From Ruminococcus sp. (GTDB lineage Bacteria > Bacillota > Clostridia > Oscillospirales > Ruminococcaceae), in NCBI GenBank assembly GCA_017542475.1, contig JAFXXD010000016.1, positions 85,591-149,590 of the forward strand: a stretch of 64,000 bases of DNA. The letters are read 5' to 3'. The notes under the pieces are model-generated. The model was not told the DNA's origin and ran no database searches. It saw only the letters and a program-made list of their open reading frames with translations. Below, piece after piece: positions 7,134 to 16,051 of the stretch. Both the position numbers and the translations under genes were made by a program. The stretch's first letter is position 1. The number at the start of each line of letters is the position of its first letter.

Positions 7134-8552
7134 TCAGTTTTTACTCATATATTCCGATATATCGCCGCTTCCACCCGTTGAGATGTACGAGTAGTAACCC
7201 AGTATCGCGGACGCGTCCTTCGCGTCGAGCATACCGTCGGCGTTGACATCGGCGGCGTTTTTTATCTCTGTCGGGAGCGGCTCTGTCTCCGCACCGGTGG
7301 ACAGCTTCGAGTATTCAGCAAGAATGAACGAGGCGTCCTTGGAATCGACCTTGCCGTCGCAGTTGGGGTCGCCGAACGAAACGGTTTTAGGAGGTTCACC
7401 GTCAAGTGCTTCAAACCTGTATCCGTATTTTTCAGCGTAAGCCTGTGCTGTTGAACTAACATATCCACGAATACACTCTTTTTCGACTTCTTCTCTACAA
7501 GTGTATGTCTCCTTTCCACCATAAATATCACAATCAGGATTCAATATCGTAATCTCACATAATCCCGTATAATAAAAAGCACCGCTACCTATTTTTTCAA
7601 GACTTTTGGGTAGAGTTATTCTTTCTAAATCGGATGTACAGCTAAATGATGCGTTTTTTATGAGCTTTAAGTTTGAAGATAATTCGCACTCTTTCAAGAA
7701 ATAACACGCATAAAATGCTTCTTTGCCAATTATTTCAACCGTGTTTGAAAAAACTATTTTATCAATATTTTGGTTTTCAAAAAATGCATAATCGCCTATC
7801 TCGACAACACCATTGGGGATACTGTATGTATTCGATTCACAGTTTTTTCCAAAAGGATAGCATATCAACAAGGTTTTGTCTTTGTTAAACAACACCCCAT
7901 CTATACTTGAAAAGTAATGGTTGTCTTCTGATACAGTAATACTCTCTATTCCACGTTCCCTTTGTCCAGTTTTTCCGCCAACAAAAAACCAATGACCAAC
8001 TGTTTCTGTTAAAAAAGCTGTACTTGATATCTCTTTAATATTTTTTGTGATACTAACTGTCTTTAGAGAGCGACAGTTTCCAAAAGCAAGCGGCTCAATC
8101 GTTTCAACCGAATCTGGAAATGCTACTTCCTCTAATTGCTCGCAATCATGAAAAACAGCTCTACGCATGGTGCTGACCCCATTAGGAATATTAATGCTTT
8201 TAAGGCTTATACAGCCATTAAATGCGCGTTCTCCAATATCAATAATAGAATTAGGAATTACCACAGATTCAAGTTTTTCACATTTCTCAAAAGCCTCACC
8301 TTCAATACAAGTTACAGTTACTCCATTTATACTGCTTGGAACATTTATGTTTCCAGCAATGCTTTCATCGCAATGAACCAAAACAGCATAATCAGAATAA
8401 ACATTAAAAGTCAAATCTCCCTCAACGACCTCGGCGTAATCTAACGCACTCGCGGTGATAACGCAGCCCGAACGCTCTGCCGTGAACGGCGCGGCTGCTC
8501 CGCACACCATCGCAGCCGCCATCACAGCCGCCATTATCCTGCCTTTTCTCAT
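7134..8552 (-). CDS. Secreted leucine-rich-repeat (BspA-type) protein with C-terminal dockerin
   Basis: A 472-residue exported protein. The signal peptide is at about residues 1-35. Many LRR_5/BspA-type repeats follow (for example LESVVIPNSIIDIGERAFNGC), then a type I dockerin with two calcium loops: GDPNCDGKVDSKDASFILAEY and ADVNADGMLDAKDASAILGYY. The dockerin suggests attachment to a cohesin-bearing scaffold. The LRR part probably mediates binding. I chose the ATG at 8550-8552 because GGAGGA sits ten bases upstream. A GTG nine bases earlier abuts that box. The LRR segment (about 7440-8430) is visibly richer in A+T than either end of the gene, suggesting a transferred module. Confidence 0.88.
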   Translation of the reverse strand: MRKGRIMAAVMAAAMVCGAAAPFTAERSGCVITASALDYAEVVEGDLTFNVYSDYAVLVHCDESIAGNINVPSSINGVTVTCIEGEAFEKCEKLESVVIPNSIIDIGERAFNGCISLKSINIPNGVSTMRRAVFHDCEQLEEVAFPDSVETIEPLAFGNCRSLKTVSITKNIKEISSTAFLTETVGHWFFVGGKTGQRERGIESITVSEDNHYFSSIDGVLFNKDKTLLICYPFGKNCESNTYSIPNGVVEIGDYAFFENQNIDKIVFSNTVEIIGKEAFYACYFLKECELSSNLKLIKNASFSCTSDLERITLPKSLEKIGSGAFYYTGLCEITILNPDCDIYGGKETYTCREEVEKECIRGYVSSTAQAYAEKYGYRFEALDGEPPKTVSFGDPNCDGKVDSKDASFILAEYSKLSTGAETEPLPTEIKNAADVNADGMLDAKDASAILGYYSYISTGGSGDISEYMSKN

Positions 8553-8670
8553 TCTTTCCACTCCTCCGCACGCGCCGTGTCGGCTCCGCGCATATTCTTA
8601 AATCTATCTTATCATAATCCGTCCCAAAAGTCAATAAATCCGAGGCGGAGTTCAAACTGAACAACCGGAC

Positions 8671-8725: not shown

Positions 8726-8754
8726 TTGTAATATGTGTCGATATATGCTATAAT
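8726..8754 (+). promoter_or_regulatory. SigmaA promoter of the giant helicase gene
   Basis: TTGTAA and TATAAT separated by 17 bases, with TGC before the -10 hexamer (extended -10). This gives the helicase gene its own promoter. Confidence 0.75.
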
Positions 8755-8803
8755 AATAAAGTATATGAAAAATTCAGCCCTTTCGGGCGGAACGGAGCTT
8801 GAT

Positions 8804-11800
8804 ATGGACAACATCATCACCTTCGGCGGAAGTATGACCAAGCAGATCAATTTTGCTATGCAGCAGAATTATGTGCCCGTTTTCCGCAATATCACCCTCA
8901 CCAACAACACCGACGAGACTATCCCCTCCGTGAAGCTGAGGATAAGCTTCGAGCCCGAGTTCGCGAAGCCGTTCGAGTCGCTCCCGACCGACCTTTTGCC
9001 CTCGCGTCCCGCGGAGATAGCTCCCGTGAACATTGTCCTCAACGCCGACTACCTGTTCAGCCTTACCGAGAAAATGGTCGGCAGCGTGACCGTCGAAGCC
9101 GTAAAGGGTGACGAGGTCATCGCCTCGCAGGTGAATACCATCGAGCTCCTCGCCTACGACCAGTGGACGGGCGTGCTCTTCATGCCCGAAATGATAGGCG
9201 CTTTCATCACGCCCAACCACCCCAAGGTGAAGGAGATAGTCGCCGAGGCGGGCAAATATATGCAGAAGTGGAGCGGCTCGCCCTCGTTCACGGGCTATCA
9301 GGACCGCAACCCCAACATCGTGAAAATGCAGATGGGCGCGATATATGCCGCCTTGCAGGAGCAGAACATCGCCTATACGGCTCCGCCCGCGAGCTACGAG
9401 ACAGCCCAGCGCGTCCGCCTGCCCGAGGACGTACTCACGGGCAAGAGCGGTACCTGCATCGACCTCGCGGTGCTCTACTGCGCGTGCCTCGAAGCCATTG
9501 ACCTCAATCCGCTGCTGTTCATCGTCAAGGGTCATGCCTTCGCAGGCTGCTGGCTCATAAACGAGACCTTCTCCGACTGCTTACAGTATGACGTTTCCGC
9601 CATTTCCAAGCGTATCGCCAAGGGCGTCAACGCGATGAGCGTGGTCGAGTGCACCGACTTCACCGCTGGCAAGGGCGTTGATTTTGATGCGGCTGAGACT
9701 CACGCTGCCGCCCACCTTGAATCCTTCGACGACTTCAATTTCGCCATAGATGTCACCCGCACGAGAGCAGGCGGTATCCGTCCCATGCCTGCGCGTGTAT
9801 GCGAGAACGGCACCTTCAAAGCCGTTGACTACGGCGAGCGCAAGCGCAGCGATATCACCTCAGCTCCCTCGGAAATGGACATTATCGGCGATATCCCGCA
9901 GGACGGCGAGCCGCGCGAGGTCACCAAGCAGATGGTGTGGGAGCGCAAGCTCCTCGACCTCAGCCTCCGCAACAGCCTGCTCAACTTCCGCCCGTCCACT
10001 ATGAACGTACAGGTGATGATGAGCGACCTCGGTCAGCTTGAGGACGTCATCTCCACGGGCGAGGAGTTCAAGGTCTGCGCCGTGCCGAACGATATGTCGT
10101 TCCAGATGGCTGACAGCAAGATATTCGAGACTGAAAACGACAAGACCCAGATAGAAGCCGTTGCTGAATCCGAGTTCAAGAGCCGCCGTCTGCGCACCTT
10201 CATCAGCGAGAGCGAGCTCGACAAGATAATGAAGAAGCTCCACAGACAGGCGAAGGTCAGCATAGAGGAAAACGGCGCTAATACGATATATCTCGCGCTC
10301 GGCTTCCTGCGCTGGTTCGAGACCGACAAGAGCGAGAAGGCGAGGTATGCTCCGCTGGTGCTCGTGCCTATCGACATCAACCGCAAGGTGCAGGATAAGT
10401 CCTACTCCATAAGAGTGCGCGACGAAGAAACGCAGGTCAACATCACTGCGCTCGAAATGCTCAGACAGTTCTTCGGCATCGACATAAAGGGGCTCGACCC
10501 CGTGCCCATGGACGAGAACGGCGTTGACCTGCCGCTCATTTTCAGCACCATACGTCAGGGCATAATGGCACGCACTCGCTGGGATATCGAGGAGTACGCC
10601 TTCATCGGTCAGTTTTCATTCAACCGCTTCATTATGTGGAACGATATCCGCAACCGCGCCGATGAGCTCGCCGAGAACAAGGTCGTGGCAAGCCTCATCT
10701 CGGGCAGGACCGAGTGGGAGGAGGGCGACATCTCGATGACGCCGCTTGAGCTCGACAACAAGGTCGCTCCCGCAGACCTCGCCGTGCCCGTTGCCGCAGA
10801 CTCGTCACAGCTGGCGGCTGTATACGCTGCAAACGCGGGCAAGAGCTTCGTTCTGCACGGACCTCCGGGAACAGGCAAGTCGCAGACGATAACAAATATG
10901 ATAGCCAACGCCCTCCACCACGGCAAGACCGTCCTCTTCGTCGCCGAGAAAATGGCGGCTCTGGAGGTCGTGGAGAAGCGTCTGAACAAGATAGGGCTCG
11001 GACCGTTCTGTCTTGAGCTCCACTCGAACAAGGCTCAGAAGCGTGCCGTGCTAAAACAGCTTGAGGACACGCTCAATGTCGGCAGGGTGAAAACTCCCGC
11101 CGAGTTCGAGGCTCAGGCTCAGAAGATATCCGAGCTCCGCGCCGAGCTCAACGACACGATGTCGGAGATACACAAGATTCGCCCGTGCGGTATGTCACTG
11201 TACGACGCGGCGGTGAAGTACGAGCAGTTCAAGCCATACGGCGGAAAGTTCAGCTTCACGCAGACGCAGATAGACGCGATGAACGCCGAAACCTATACGA
11301 AGTGGCGCGGCGAGCTCGAACGCCTTGCCGCGGCAGGCAGGGAATTCGGCGACGTCACTGCTACTCCCCTCACCTGCTGCCGTCTCACGGACTGCACTCC
11401 CGATACGCGCGGAAGGCTTGAAAGCAGGCTCGGCGAGTTCAAGTCCGCACTTGCGGCGGCGGGAGCTCACAATGGCGAGCTCTGCGCGGCTGTGGGCTCG
11501 GAAGGTCTCAGCTACGAGCAGTGCAGAGCAGCAGCCGACCTCATCACGACGGCTTGCTCCGAGGGCTATATCCTCCCGCAGATACTCACGGGAAGCGGCT
11601 GGGAGCTCCGTAAGGCGGCGGCTGAACAGCTCATCGCTTCGGGACGTCAGCAGCGCGCCCTCAAAGCAGAGGTGCTCGGTCAGTTCGAGCCGTCCGTACT
11701 CGCATACGACGTGAGCGGCGCTCTCGTCAACTGGAAGACCGCGCAGAGCAAGTGGTTCCTGCCCAAGCTGTTCGGTACGAACAAGCTCGTCAAGGAGCTC

Positions 11801-14602
11801 GCGGCGCACGCTAAATCGCCGGCGACCGTTACAAAGCAGAACATAGAGGGACACTACGCCAAGCTCAATCAGCTCGGTGCGCTCAGCAATGAGATAGTCA
11901 GCGCTCAGCCCGACTTAACGGCGGTATTCGGCGCTCTGTGGCAGGGCGAGAGCTCCGACTGGGATATGATAGAAAAGGCAGTTGCGCTGTCGGATAAGCT
12001 CCGCGGCGGACTGGCAGCGGCTCCGCTGAATACAGAGGAGAAGTCGATGCTCGCGCAGACGCTCGTGACGGGCTACGGCGACCCGACCGCAAAGACGGCT
12101 TCAAAGGCGGCGGCTGACAAGCTGTCCGCGGACTATGCAAGGCTCGGTGCGGAGGTTTCCGCGCTCGGTAGCGAATTCGCGCTCACGCCCGACCTCAGCG
12201 GCGAGGATGACTGGTCTGCACACGCTTCGGCTCAGGCTGACAGCGTTATCGGCGCGCTCCCGCAGCTCAAGGAGTGGACGGGTATCGTCACGATATGCAA
12301 CGAGCTCACGAGCCTCGGTATCGGCAACGTCGCCGACAACTTCCTCGCGGGCAAGGTGCGTCCGAACGAGCTGCTCGGCGGCTTCGACTGCGACCTCTGC
12401 CGCGCTGTGGTGACCTCTGTTATCTCCTCGACGCCTGTACTCGCGAAGTTCCAAGGGACGCTCTTTGAGGAGACGATACGCAAGTACGGCGAGGTGCTCG
12501 ACAAGTTCTCGACACTGACAATAAACGAGCTCGTGGCGGAGCTGTCCGCGAAGATACCCGCAGCGGAACAGTCGGCGGCAAGCTCAGAGATAGGCATACT
12601 CCAGAAGGCGATAAAGAGCAACGGACGTATGATGTCCATACGCAAGCTCTTCGACAGCATTCCCAATCTCCTGAGGAGAATGTGTCCCGTTATGCTGATG
12701 AGCCCGATATCCGTTGCTCAGTATATCGACCCGTCATACCCGAAGTTCGACCTCGTTATCTTCGACGAGGCTTCACAGCTCCCGACCTGCGAGGCTGTCG
12801 GTGCTATCGCGCGCGGCGAGAACGTCATCGTCGTCGGCGACCCCAAGCAGCTCCCGCCTACCAGCTTCTTCTCCTCCAATCAGGTGGACGAGGAGAACTA
12901 CGAGAAGGAAGACCTCGAAAGCGTGCTCGACGACTGTCTCGCACTCTCGATGCCGCAGGAGCACCTGCTCTGGCACTACCGCTCGCAGCATGAGAGCCTC
13001 ATCGCCTACAGCAACGCCAAGTATTACGACAACAAGCTCTTCACCTTCCCGTCGCCCGACGACCAGATTTCCGAGGTCAGCTGGGTGCACGTCGAGGGCT
13101 TCTACGACAAGAGCTCCACACGTACAAACAAAGCCGAGGCTAAGGCTATCGTGGACGAGATATCCCGCAGGCTCGAAGACCCGAAGCTGCGTAAGCAGAG
13201 TATCGGCGTAGTTACCTTCAGCCAGCCCCAGCAGAACCTCATAGACGATATGCTGATGGACGCCTACAGAGAGCGTCCCGAGCTCGAGCAGTGGGCGAAT
13301 GAGCAGTACGAGCCCATCATAATCAAGAACCTCGAAAACGTACAGGGCGACGAGCGCGACGTCATAATGTTCTCTATCGGCTACGGTCCCGACAAGGAGG
13401 GCAAGGTCAGCATGAACTTCGGTCCCCTCAACCGCGACGGCGGCTGGAGACGTCTCAATGTCGCGATATCGCGCTCGAAGTGTCAGATGATAGTGTTCTC
13501 CGTCATCACTCCCGATATGATAGACCTCTCGCGCACACGCTCCGACGGCGTGGAGGGGCTCAAGGGCTTCCTCGAATTTGCGGCTAAGGGCAGGAGTGCT
13601 CTCGCCGTAAGAGGCAACACCTCCGCAAAGACTGCCGACTTCAGCGGCGTGCTCGCGGACGAGCTCCGCAAGCACGGATTCACCGCAAATACTGCGGTCG
13701 GCTGCTCCGACTTCAAGATAGATGTGGCTGTAGCCGACCCCGAGGATACCACGAAGTACATACTCGGCATAAACTGCGGCACGAAGTCCAACTACGTCAA
13801 CGGCACCGCCAAGGACAGACACCTCTCGCAGTCGTCCGTGCTTCGCGGTCTCGGCTGGAACACGATGAACGTCTATATCCTCGACTGGCTTGACAACAAG
13901 GACAAGGTCATCAAGAAGATAGAGGACGAGATAGCCGCGATAATCGAGCGCAGGAATGCGCCTCCCGAGCCCGCAAAGGACGAACCGAAGCCGCAGAAGC
14001 AGGAGCTTGTTTTCGAGACCGAGGAGGTAAGCCCGCTCGCCGAGAGATGTGACACATACAAGCCCTTCAAGGTGAAGGAATACGGCAAGAGCGAGGCTTT
14101 CAACGAGATGGGCGAGGTAAAGATAATCAAGTGCGTCAAGGATATCCTCGCGGCTGAGGCTCCCGTAAGCAGGACGGCTCTCACGAAGAAGCTGTTCGCC
14201 TGCTTCAGCGTGGCGAGGACTACTCCCAATACCAAGGCGACTGCCGACTCCGCGATAGAGAAGTGCGGCGCTGTTGTCACCAAGGCGGGCGAGAACGACT
14301 TCCTGTGGCTGCCCGACCAGACTCCTGCAAGCTACGATATCTGCCGCGCGAACTGCTCCGATGAGGACAGGCGCACGCTCGACGAGGTAGCTCCCGAGGA
14401 GATAGCCGCGGGTATCAAGCTCATTATGTCCGAGCAGATAGCTATGCTCCGCGAGGATCTTATCCGCGAGACCGCTCACCTCTTCGGCTTCACGAGGGTC
14501 ACTCCCACCATAGAAACTGCTGTTTCCCTCGGCATTCGCGAGGCGAAAAAGCGCGGATTCGTGGAGTTCTCCGAAGACGGAAGGATAAGCTATACGGAAT
14601 AA
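8804..14602 (+). CDS. Giant transglutaminase-like/DUF4011/SF1 helicase/Vsr-like/DUF3320 protein
   Basis: A 1932-residue multidomain protein. In order: an N-terminal beta-rich region; a transglutaminase-like core with Cys218 (GKSGTCIDLA) and His244 (KGHAFAGCW); DUF4011 from about 378 (WERKLLDLSLRNSLLNFR); an SF1/Upf1-like helicase with Walker A GPPGTGKS at 686-693, DEAS at about 1321, GDPKQLPP at about 1345, then WHYRSQHESL, NVQGDERDV and NVAISRSK; a Vsr/MTES_1575-like nuclease fold at about 1610-1690; and DUF3320 near the C-terminus. In the nuclease region Asp1640 (KIDVAV) is kept, but the usual ECDG-type motif reads INCGTK, so cleavage activity is doubtful. The start at 8804 has GGAG six bases upstream. 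Such proteins are suspected defence factors. No defence genes adjoin it. Confidence 0.85.
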   Translation: MDNIITFGGSMTKQINFAMQQNYVPVFRNITLTNNTDETIPSVKLRISFEPEFAKPFESLPTDLLPSRPAEIAPVNIVLNADYLFSLTEKMVGSVTVEAVKGDEVIASQVNTIELLAYDQWTGVLFMPEMIGAFITPNHPKVKEIVAEAGKYMQKWSGSPSFTGYQDRNPNIVKMQMGAIYAALQEQNIAYTAPPASYETAQRVRLPEDVLTGKSGTCIDLAVLYCACLEAIDLNPLLFIVKGHAFAGCWLINETFSDCLQYDVSAISKRIAKGVNAMSVVECTDFTAGKGVDFDAAETHAAAHLESFDDFNFAIDVTRTRAGGIRPMPARVCENGTFKAVDYGERKRSDITSAPSEMDIIGDIPQDGEPREVTKQMVWERKLLDLSLRNSLLNFRPSTMNVQVMMSDLGQLEDVISTGEEFKVCAVPNDMSFQMADSKIFETENDKTQIEAVAESEFKSRRLRTFISESELDKIMKKLHRQAKVSIEENGANTIYLALGFLRWFETDKSEKARYAPLVLVPIDINRKVQDKSYSIRVRDEETQVNITALEMLRQFFGIDIKGLDPVPMDENGVDLPLIFSTIRQGIMARTRWDIEEYAFIGQFSFNRFIMWNDIRNRADELAENKVVASLISGRTEWEEGDISMTPLELDNKVAPADLAVPVAADSSQLAAVYAANAGKSFVLHGPPGTGKSQTITNMIANALHHGKTVLFVAEKMAALEVVEKRLNKIGLGPFCLELHSNKAQKRAVLKQLEDTLNVGRVKTPAEFEAQAQKISELRAELNDTMSEIHKIRPCGMSLYDAAVKYEQFKPYGGKFSFTQTQIDAMNAETYTKWRGELERLAAAGREFGDVTATPLTCCRLTDCTPDTRGRLESRLGEFKSALAAAGAHNGELCAAVGSEGLSYEQCRAAADLITTACSEGYILPQILTGSGWELRKAAAEQLIASGRQQRALKAEVLGQFEPSVLAYDVSGALVNWKTAQSKWFLPKLFGTNKLVKELAAHAKSPATVTKQNIEGHYAKLNQLGALSNEIVSAQPDLTAVFGALWQGESSDWDMIEKAVALSDKLRGGLAAAPLNTEEKSMLAQTLVTGYGDPTAKTASKAAADKLSADYARLGAEVSALGSEFALTPDLSGEDDWSAHASAQADSVIGALPQLKEWTGIVTICNELTSLGIGNVADNFLAGKVRPNELLGGFDCDLCRAVVTSVISSTPVLAKFQGTLFEETIRKYGEVLDKFSTLTINELVAELSAKIPAAEQSAASSEIGILQKAIKSNGRMMSIRKLFDSIPNLLRRMCPVMLMSPISVAQYIDPSYPKFDLVIFDEASQLPTCEAVGAIARGENVIVVGDPKQLPPTSFFSSNQVDEENYEKEDLESVLDDCLALSMPQEHLLWHYRSQHESLIAYSNAKYYDNKLFTFPSPDDQISEVSWVHVEGFYDKSSTRTNKAEAKAIVDEISRRLEDPKLRKQSIGVVTFSQPQQNLIDDMLMDAYRERPELEQWANEQYEPIIIKNLENVQGDERDVIMFSIGYGPDKEGKVSMNFGPLNRDGGWRRLNVAISRSKCQMIVFSVITPDMIDLSRTRSDGVEGLKGFLEFAAKGRSALAVRGNTSAKTADFSGVLADELRKHGFTANTAVGCSDFKIDVAVADPEDTTKYILGINCGTKSNYVNGTAKDRHLSQSSVLRGLGWNTMNVYILDWLDNKDKVIKKIEDEIAAIIERRNAPPEPAKDEPKPQKQELVFETEEVSPLAERCDTYKPFKVKEYGKSEAFNEMGEVKIIKCVKDILAAEAPVSRTALTKKLFACFSVARTTPNTKATADSAIEKCGAVVTKAGENDFLWLPDQTPASYDICRANCSDEDRRTLDEVAPEEIAAGIKLIMSEQIAMLREDLIRETAHLFGFTRVTPTIETAVSLGIREAKKRGFVEFSEDGRISYTE

Positions 14603-14604
14603 AT

Positions 14605-14678
14605 GCAGGGGGCGATGCCTTCATCGCCCCGTCAAATCTATGCCGTTTTTCGGGCGGATGTGGGCATCCGCCCCTACA
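14605..14678. repeat. Two GTAGGGG-type hairpins in opposite orientation
   Basis: The first (14605-14631) pairs GGGCGATG with CATCGCCC. The second (14651-14678) pairs GGGCGGATG with CATCCGCCC and ends in CCCCTACA. They separate the helicase stop codon from murT. Confidence 0.72.
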
Positions 14679-14707: not shown

Positions 14708-16051
14708 TTGAACAGACTTCTCATACTCATTGGTAAAATTATCGTCGGCATACTGCGCCTTCTCGGGCGCAATGCGGGCAACCTCCCCGGAATCGTGCTG
14801 TGGCACCTCACAAGCGGAAAATGCTGCAAGATGTTTAAGGTCGACTGCCCGATAATCGCCGTAACAGGCACGAACGGCAAGACCTCCGTCACCAACTGCG
14901 TGGCTCAGCTCTTCGAGCAGAGCGGCAGGAAGATAATCATCAACAAGGAGGGCAACAACCTCGACACGGGTATCTGCTCCCTCCTGCTCCGCCACTGCGA
15001 CGGCTCGGGCAAGGTCAACGCAGACTACCTCATTCTCGAAACAGACGAGAGCCACGTCCCCGTGGTGTACTCTCAGCTGAAGCTGGAAACCCTCGTGGTG
15101 CTCGATTTCTTCCGCGACCAGCTCGACCGCAACGGCGAGATGGAGACCCTCATTCAGAAGATAAACTGCTTCTGCAAGACCTTTGACGGCAACCTCATAC
15201 TCAACGGCGACGACCCCAATACCGCTCGTCTCGGCAAGGCGAATCCCGACAGCAAAAATATCAGATACTTCCGCGCGGACAGGTACGCATTCGCGACCGA
15301 GAAGATATTCGAGGCGTCAGAGGGCAGGTTCTGCCCGTTCTGCGGAGAGGCGCTCGTGTACGAGTTCTACCAGTATTCGCACATTGGCAGATTTGCCTGT
15401 CCCAAGTGCGGCTTCGGCAATTACGAGCCCTACGTCACCGCGGGCGGCATTGACCTCGAAAAGCCCGTGTTTACCGTTGACGGGCACGAATACTCGCCCA
15501 AGCTCAACAGTATCTACAACGTCTACAATATGACTGCTGTCGCGGCAGTGGCGAAGCTCTACGGCATTGAGCAGGGCGTCACCGAGAATGTCATCAACAA
15601 CTACACCGTCAACAACGGACGTATGGAGACGTTTATTCTCGGCGACAGGCTCACCACCCTCAACCTCGCGAAAAATCCCGTAGGTGCGAATATGACCCTC
15701 CGCGTGATGAACGAGATGAAGGGCGAGAAGGAGCTCCTCTTCGTGCTCAATGACAATGTCGCGGACGGTCTTGATGTGTCGTGGATATGGGACATCAATT
15801 TCAGCATTTTCGAGCGCGTCACCCGCGTTGTTACGTCGGGCACGCGTGCCTACGACATCGCCGTGCGCATAAAATGCTCAGGCTATGACCCTGCGAATAT
15901 CGTCGTGCGCCCCGACCTCGACGAGGCTGTGGCGGAGCTCGCCAAGACTGAGGGACGAAAGTTCGTCATCGCGAACTACACCGCCGTCCAGCCCACGCGT
16001 GCCGCACTGAAGCGCTATATTTCGAGCAACGGAGGTAAGTGCGATGAGTGA
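14708..16051 (+). CDS. murT: Lipid II isoglutaminyl synthase, MurT subunit
   Basis: A 447-residue Mur-ligase-family protein. With GatD it amidates the D-glutamate of lipid II to D-isoglutamine. The ATP site GTNGKTSVTN lies at about residue 54. A Cys4 zinc ribbon (CPFCGE, then CPKCGF) is inserted at about 209-240, typical of MurT. The C-terminal domain follows. The start is a TTG at 14708 giving MNRLLILIGKIIVGILRLLGR, the family N-terminus. The 35 codons before it run through hairpin repeats and are not credible coding sequence. It overlaps gatD by eight bases. Confidence 0.93.
   Translation: MNRLLILIGKIIVGILRLLGRNAGNLPGIVLWHLTSGKCCKMFKVDCPIIAVTGTNGKTSVTNCVAQLFEQSGRKIIINKEGNNLDTGICSLLLRHCDGSGKVNADYLILETDESHVPVVYSQLKLETLVVLDFFRDQLDRNGEMETLIQKINCFCKTFDGNLILNGDDPNTARLGKANPDSKNIRYFRADRYAFATEKIFEASEGRFCPFCGEALVYEFYQYSHIGRFACPKCGFGNYEPYVTAGGIDLEKPVFTVDGHEYSPKLNSIYNVYNMTAVAAVAKLYGIEQGVTENVINNYTVNNGRMETFILGDRLTTLNLAKNPVGANMTLRVMNEMKGEKELLFVLNDNVADGLDVSWIWDINFSIFERVTRVVTSGTRAYDIAVRIKCSGYDPANIVVRPDLDEAVAELAKTEGRKFVIANYTAVQPTRAALKRYISSNGGKCDE

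Follow-up and report, generated by a model that had tools for sequence, protein, structure and literature searches.

The gene at 8804-14602 (+) of the window, the whole 64,000-nucleotide stretch of Ruminococcus DNA that was analysed, encodes a protein that can be assigned by its profile match as an intact, full-length member of the family named anti-phage protein ProA (NCBIfam NF058533), which has no relation to the namesake proA of proline biosynthesis. Our tentative reading, to which we give a probability of about 0.45, is that this ProA variant acts through its helicase and a cysteine hydrolase and not by DNA cutting. The nuclease site is lost, a protease-like site is kept and cell-wall genes are adjacent; the action is therefore probably other than cutting of DNA. 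The features of the locus are as follows.

8726-8754 (+): extended -10 promoter, TTGTAA-17-TATAAT, the second hexamer preceded by TG, 10/12 matches
8777-8788 (+): candidate leader hairpin GCCC-TTTC-GGGC, found by eye, directly upstream of the ribosome-binding site
8804-14602 (+): proA-type gene, 1932 aa, NF058533
8804-9163 (+): N-terminal beta-sandwich, residues 1-120
9167-9781 (+): transglutaminase-like cysteine hydrolase domain, residues 122-326
9455-9457, 9533-9535 and 9590-9592 (+): C218, H244 and D263 of the transglutaminase-like domain
9947-10462 (+): DUF4011, residues 382-553, Pfam PF13195, 158.7 bits
10793-13513 (+): SF1 helicase core with a long insert, residues 664-1570, Pfam AAA_11 and AAA_12
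10859-10882 and 12761-12775 (+): Walker A and motif II (FDEAS) of the helicase core
13640-13933 (+): MTES_1575/Vsr-like nuclease fold, residues 1613-1710, Pfam 64.4 bits (cut-off 38.2)
13721-13723, 13772-13774 and 13793-13795 (+): D1640, kept; N1657, in place of Glu; Y1664, in place of His
14120-14599 (+): winged-helix tail (DUF3320 region and C-terminal winged helix), residues 1773-1932
14708-16051 (+): murT, probable TTG start, MurT_C 113.4 bits, Mur_ligase_M 47.2 bits
16044-16787 (+): gatD, overlapping murT by 8 bases, Pfam GATase_3 123.1 bits
16930-18225 (+): GH25 muramidase-like gene, Pfam PF01183, 94.0 bits
18256-19719 (+): penicillin-binding transpeptidase-like gene, Pfam PF00905, 70.5 bits

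The 1932-aa frame contains no internal stop, and its product scored 2098.6 bits against NF058533 (curated equivalog threshold, 1500 bits) over model positions 1-1903 of 1903. The best PADLOC match was PDC-S37 (1222.5 bits), followed by Hhe (539.1 bits). A GTG start at 8735 is improbable because the promoter at 8726-8754 would fall inside the extended frame.

The helicase sequences GPPGTGKS, DEAS and GDPKQLPP, as well as Cys218 and His244, were found where a sequence-only reading of this DNA had placed them, and the SF1 motifs are intact by our own family criterion. Pfam thresholds were exceeded by DUF4011, by two pieces of the SF1 motor and by MTES_1575. The transglutaminase-like and DUF3320 domains of that reading scored below the Pfam cut-offs (Transglut_core 17.3 bits against 23, DUF3320 21.3 bits against 25), but comparison of folds backed the transglutaminase-like domain and the C-terminal winged helix. 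The fold matches, of moderate strength, were to PNGase/protease-like and Vsr-type nuclease-like structures. Placement in the transglutaminase-like/PNGase superfamily agrees with both the Cys-His-Asp order and the fold, and placement of the MTES_1575/Vsr-type fold with both profile and fold. No HEPN family appeared among the best 25 of the 28 Pfam matches of the protein. The HEPN motif carries a His where the start of DUF4011, R-N-S-L-L-N, shows an Asn (Asn in 73/75 proteins of the ProA clade), and no HEPN motif was seen within DUF4011.

Two variations of this layout were observed in relatives. On a Cyanobacterium plasmid (L200:5959-12369), alignment showed two genes, one with the hydrolase and the start of DUF4011 (517 aa) and one with the helicase and nuclease fold (1546 aa). 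In others (G483, G460, G481, G501, G510 and L092) ProA stops at model position ~1712-1725, where the nuclease-like domain ends, and so lacks the winged-helix tail; the linkage to murT is retained.

Conservation was read from an alignment of 75 full-length ProA-clade proteins including that of the window (>1480 bits to the window protein, >1700 aa), taken from 77 genome_contigs loci and from genome searches. Identity to the window protein goes down to 40%; 45 proteins are at 62.5% or above, and the set holds 65 representatives at 95% identity. The SF1 helicase motifs are near-invariant, and the C218/H244/D263 triad is retained in 74/75 proteins. Cys and His are also present in every aligned plasmid-borne relative with a transglutaminase-like domain. 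In comparisons with five close relatives (L060, L063, L088, L091 and L061; whole-gene dS 0.42-0.80), dN/dS was 0.036-0.062 for residues 1-340 and 0.019-0.042 for the second motor block, the most constrained part of the protein. Selection thus keeps the helicase and the transglutaminase-like site, the two parts through which the sequence-only reading had supposed that the protein may act.

The sole exception to the triad is L084 (10001-15799), where Cys218 is replaced by Ala and His244 by Arg; such a joint loss is what one would expect of a functional pair. The nuclease Glu is likewise absent from L084, and its full-length frame is open. Further downstream of ProA in L084 lies a frame of at least 2796 aa, with a counterpart of at least 2865 aa in L082.

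The open frame of L084 and the strong constraint on the second motor block would suit a defence by the helicase only, with a motor that obstructs or strips the replication of phage DNA, a dead nuclease fold that binds DNA and a transglutaminase-like domain that serves just to bind proteins. We consider this unlikely, because a mere scaffold would need no triad and the triad is kept almost throughout the clade and, as Cys and His, in the plasmid relatives.

The gene had been described as standalone; it is in fact the head of a proA-murT-gatD cluster. MurT-GatD amidates lipid II. In the window, 105 bases separate the proA stop from murT, and the two further cell-wall genes listed above follow gatD. 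On the other side, a gene for a BspA-type leucine-rich repeat protein with a dockerin (7134-8561, -) is divergent from proA. The Pfam results for nine genes flanking proA in the window, two of which had no match, agree with the earlier statement that there are no defence neighbours.

The 77 genome_contigs loci comprise 51 at or above 62.5% identity and 26 below. Among loci of the first group with at least 600 bases downstream, murT is the next gene in 43/43, against 1/22 of the less similar loci with room. The genome_contigs records matching the genus sample are from Ruminococcus, many of them from R. flavefaciens. In a sample of 120 Ruminococcus genomes, 59/64 ProA places immediately precede murT and share its strand (adjacency meaning within 2 kb; by the measure applied, the distance never exceeds 733 bases). 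At four of the five remaining places (G024, G506, G023 and G522) the contig ends within 615 bases, and the fifth, in G499, is a lower-scoring ProA match in a genome with no murT hit. Anti-phage genes are expected in mobile, variable places, and a fixed site before murT-gatD throughout the genus is unusual for a family named anti-phage.

The spacer between proA and murT could be measured in 42 of 44 loci (two were unreadable). It is 1-28 bases long in 31/42, 44-111 in 7 and 337-545 in 4, the last being near relatives of the window. The probable murT start is TTG in 40/42, and a GGAG-type ribosome-binding site is frequent in the spacers listed. Distances between ProA proteins and between MurT proteins agree across 44 loci (Mantel r 0.80; 0/999 permutations as high). 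In the window, the spacer also contains a perfect GGGCGGAT..ATCCGCCC palindrome (14652-14673). A pattern search of the window recovered this palindrome plus two matches at 3 mismatches; since 0.45 are expected by chance on average, no repeat family is claimed, and none was evident within the window.

The promoter attributed to proA by the sequence-only reading held up well. Its pattern is present in 46/52 loci that are murT-linked or at least 62.5% identical, against 3/17 others, with a mean of 0.055 in single-base shuffles as control, the loci being related by descent. The promoter is also conserved in the alignment of related loci, and it stays in place although the genes 5' of proA vary. 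Promoter-type sites are more frequent than expected in the region (8 in an 8.6-kb stretch against 2.9). We infer that proA, murT and gatD are co-transcribed in Ruminococcus from proA's own promoter. A short GCC..GGC hairpin was also noted in leaders of related loci; between loci, its two arms seem to vary in a matched way.

Such an arrangement raises the possibility that ProA was co-opted in Ruminococcus, together with MurT-GatD, for a housekeeping or cell-wall-stress role and that defence was abandoned. The constant position before murT, the short spacers, the agreeing distances and the cell-wall genes that follow in the window are all in line with it. The sequence-only reading had proposed that homologues found uniformly in housekeeping operons, with no defence association, would count against it, and the neighbourhood is uniform within the Ruminococcus group but not elsewhere. 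ProA is, however, dispensable. It was found in 64/120 genomes (E <= 1e-60; 40/65 of those of good quality) and murT in 103/120 (E <= 1e-100), 42 of them without ProA. When the murT regions of 20 of the 56 ProA-less genomes (same ProA threshold; 4 regions shortened by contig ends) were inspected, gatD was present in 20/20. Outside the genus group the family is located elsewhere, and neighbours can stay together by vertical inheritance alone. For these reasons we regard co-option as improbable.

No trace of ProA (E <= 1e-3) was detected in 18 of these 20 ProA-less regions, within the stretch examined. The other two, from the related genomes G503 and G014, contain a frame of 596-599 aa directly upstream of murT (L195:5141-6928 and L192) that is about 30% identical to ProA and consists only of DUF4011 (Pfam, 65.6 bits) and the middle part; neither the Walker A region nor the hydrolase nor the nuclease fold has a match in these short frames. 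In L179 and L189, gene families that precede ProA elsewhere (f4 and f2) stand immediately 5' of murT. A tree of MurT from 64 loci (ProA present in 44, absent from 18 and in its short form in 2) needed 7 changes overall against 17.6 in shuffles; it came from a short search and has many weak forks, and its starred branches force only 2 changes for presence. Inheritance with loss in individual lineages accounts for this pattern better than frequent exchange does, and ProA seems to have been passed on largely vertically in Ruminococcus.

The nuclease-like domain was compared with the active-site motif as read in intact relatives, namely the Glu of ECDG, the His of YH and the second Asp of RDRD. 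The window protein has N1657, Y1664 and H1673 at these positions and so lacks the motif of an active MTES_1575/Vsr nuclease. Across the clade, Glu occurs at position 1657 in 0/75 proteins and His at 1664 in 2/75; the second Asp of RDRD is mostly gone and position 1659 is Asp in 25/75. D1640 (75/75), D1671 (74/75) and R1672 (75/75) are kept. The sequence-only reading had noted a degenerate ECDG-type motif beside a conserved Asp, and the aligned segment indeed reads INCG, with D1640 retained; its suggestion that cleavage has been lost is very probably correct. It had ascribed the loss to this copy. Judging from the alignment, the degenerate nuclease is a trait of the whole ProA clade. Among the members displayed, the motif is mostly I-(M/L/I)-x-D outside Ruminococcus and mostly I-(N/S)-C-(G/C) within it, and the degeneration therefore appears to have been inherited and to be further advanced in Ruminococcus.

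The nuclease-like domain is under purifying selection like the rest of window proA (dN/dS 0.068-0.210 against the five close relatives). Constraint was weaker against the distant L100 (73% identity, dS 1.47; 0.277 for the domain and 0.137 for the whole gene), and values against L095 and L062 were saturated or undefined in places. The pseudonuclease is therefore retained for some use, for which binding is the simplest guess. It could in principle still cleave in an unrecognised form, and a rearranged nuclease site would accord with this selection and with the constancy of D1640, D1671 and R1672. Given the loss of Glu, of nearly every His and of most second Asp residues of RDRD, we think this very unlikely. 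Apart from D1640 and D1671, acidic residues between 1600 and 1712 are conserved in at least 90% of the proteins only at positions 1694 and 1697, at the domain end. A complete alternative acidic triad, named by the sequence-only reading as evidence that would count against it, was not conserved in the 75-protein alignment.

Wider homologues were represented by 17 plasmid loci taken from record lists of 467 and 74. The nuclease Glu is present in 13/17 (two from Rhizobium, one each from Gluconobacter, Comamonas, Pseudomonas, Klebsiella, Thioclava, Paraburkholderia, Pseudoalteromonas, Paracoccus, Falsirhodobacter and Picosynechococcus, and the split Cyanobacterium copy), and 12 of these 13 also have the His, Picosynechococcus being the exception. 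Glu is absent from two Acinetobacter copies and one Bacteroides copy; a fragmented Microbacterium copy is unreadable at the nuclease site. In L036, from Bacillota, Glu is retained and His is gone. A Bacillota-only alignment had suggested the rule that a transglutaminase domain goes with a lost nuclease; this was refuted by the homologues on plasmids of Proteobacteria and cyanobacteria, which have both.

On a tree of residues 560-1570 (nuclease excluded; 36 of 40 rows), the nuclease Glu needs two changes, both forced by well-supported branches. They map to the ProA clade (13 rows) and to the Acinetobacter pair, and both groups keep the Cys-His pair. These changes are read as losses because all seven rows without an aligned transglutaminase-like part have Glu and His, several of the seven being on long branches and many rows of the tree having an odd composition. 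The nuclease was thus apparently lost twice in the sampled family.

Several plasmid copies are near toxin-antitoxin, restriction or ThiF/JAB genes and others are away from them, in a tally without a control set. PADLOC was applied to 131 proteins flanking 22 of the 25 loci that are below 62.5% identity and not next to murT; the matches fell into 82 families, each hit by at most 3 proteins; the 25 families listed were all Cas1, Cas2, mad3 or mad8 (again without a control set). A scan of viral_contigs with a single-protein query, which reaches close relatives only, returned no phage-borne copy. Three records of a phage collection matched, one across most of the length (41.7%); this unverified faecal scaffold (L146) is similar to the Bacteroides plasmid copy.

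In the mechanism that we infer for a ProA acting through helicase and hydrolase, the DUF4011/SF1 helicase would recognise or remodel unusual (phage or damaged) DNA, with the winged-helix tail and what was once a nuclease as its DNA-binding parts. ATP-driven motion of the helicase would release the Cys218-His244-Asp263 site, which would act on a protein by cleavage, deamidation or cross-linking, and this modification would bring the phage or its infected host cell to a halt. The MTES_1575 domain would have ceased to cut DNA.

A more specific proposal, and a highly improbable one in our estimation, is that the nuclease-dead ProA of Ruminococcus is part of a cell-envelope response, with a DNA-sensing helicase and a hydrolase acting on the MurT-GatD pathway or on its amide-bearing precursor product. 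If true, phage DNA or DNA damage would alter or halt peptidoglycan synthesis, and sensor and target pathway would share one transcription unit. The cell-wall link may reflect long neighbourhood alone.

That the gene is decaying, an option left by the sequence-only reading, is hardly credible: ProA-less genomes occur in the genus and the frame is in two pieces in the nearest relative (L075 of G004, 97% identity) and in L020 (G033), where sequencing or assembly error is possible, but the window frame is intact, whole-gene dN/dS is 0.079-0.097 against the five close relatives and the frames of eight relatives at 73-93% identity are stop-free.

Among known systems, the window protein matches ProA (NF058533) over its full length, and the members over the cut-off that were compared align along the same parts, starting with the transglutaminase-like domain and ending with the nuclease fold. 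The window branch differs in lacking the nuclease Glu and His and in its link to murT-gatD in Ruminococcus. Two proteobacterial proteins, L138 and L143, keep both residues and also exceed the ProA cut-off; the loss of the nuclease therefore splits the named family. A literature search found no description of an anti-phage ProA. The anti-phage label thus rests on the database name, and the window branch would owe a putative anti-phage role to its family name only. Identity with Hhe (NF042953) is ruled out by a score of 758.8 bits, far under the cut-off of 2000; the best stretch, 1138-1735, corresponds to the second motor block and the nuclease fold.

Another architectural parallel is with the giant HEPN-transglutaminase-SF1 helicase-Vsr-wHTH proteins (MTES_1575; Anantharaman et al., 2013, PMC3710099). 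The transglutaminase-like domain, SF1 helicase, Vsr-type fold and winged helices are shared. The giant proteins bear HEPN, whereas the window protein has no recognised HEPN and its nuclease site is lost. Protein cleavage is proposed in that survey as an additional line of defence in such proteins (PMC3710099). With the nuclease given up and the cysteine-hydrolase triad kept, the window branch would present this second effector of the giant proteins in isolation, where it is directly testable.
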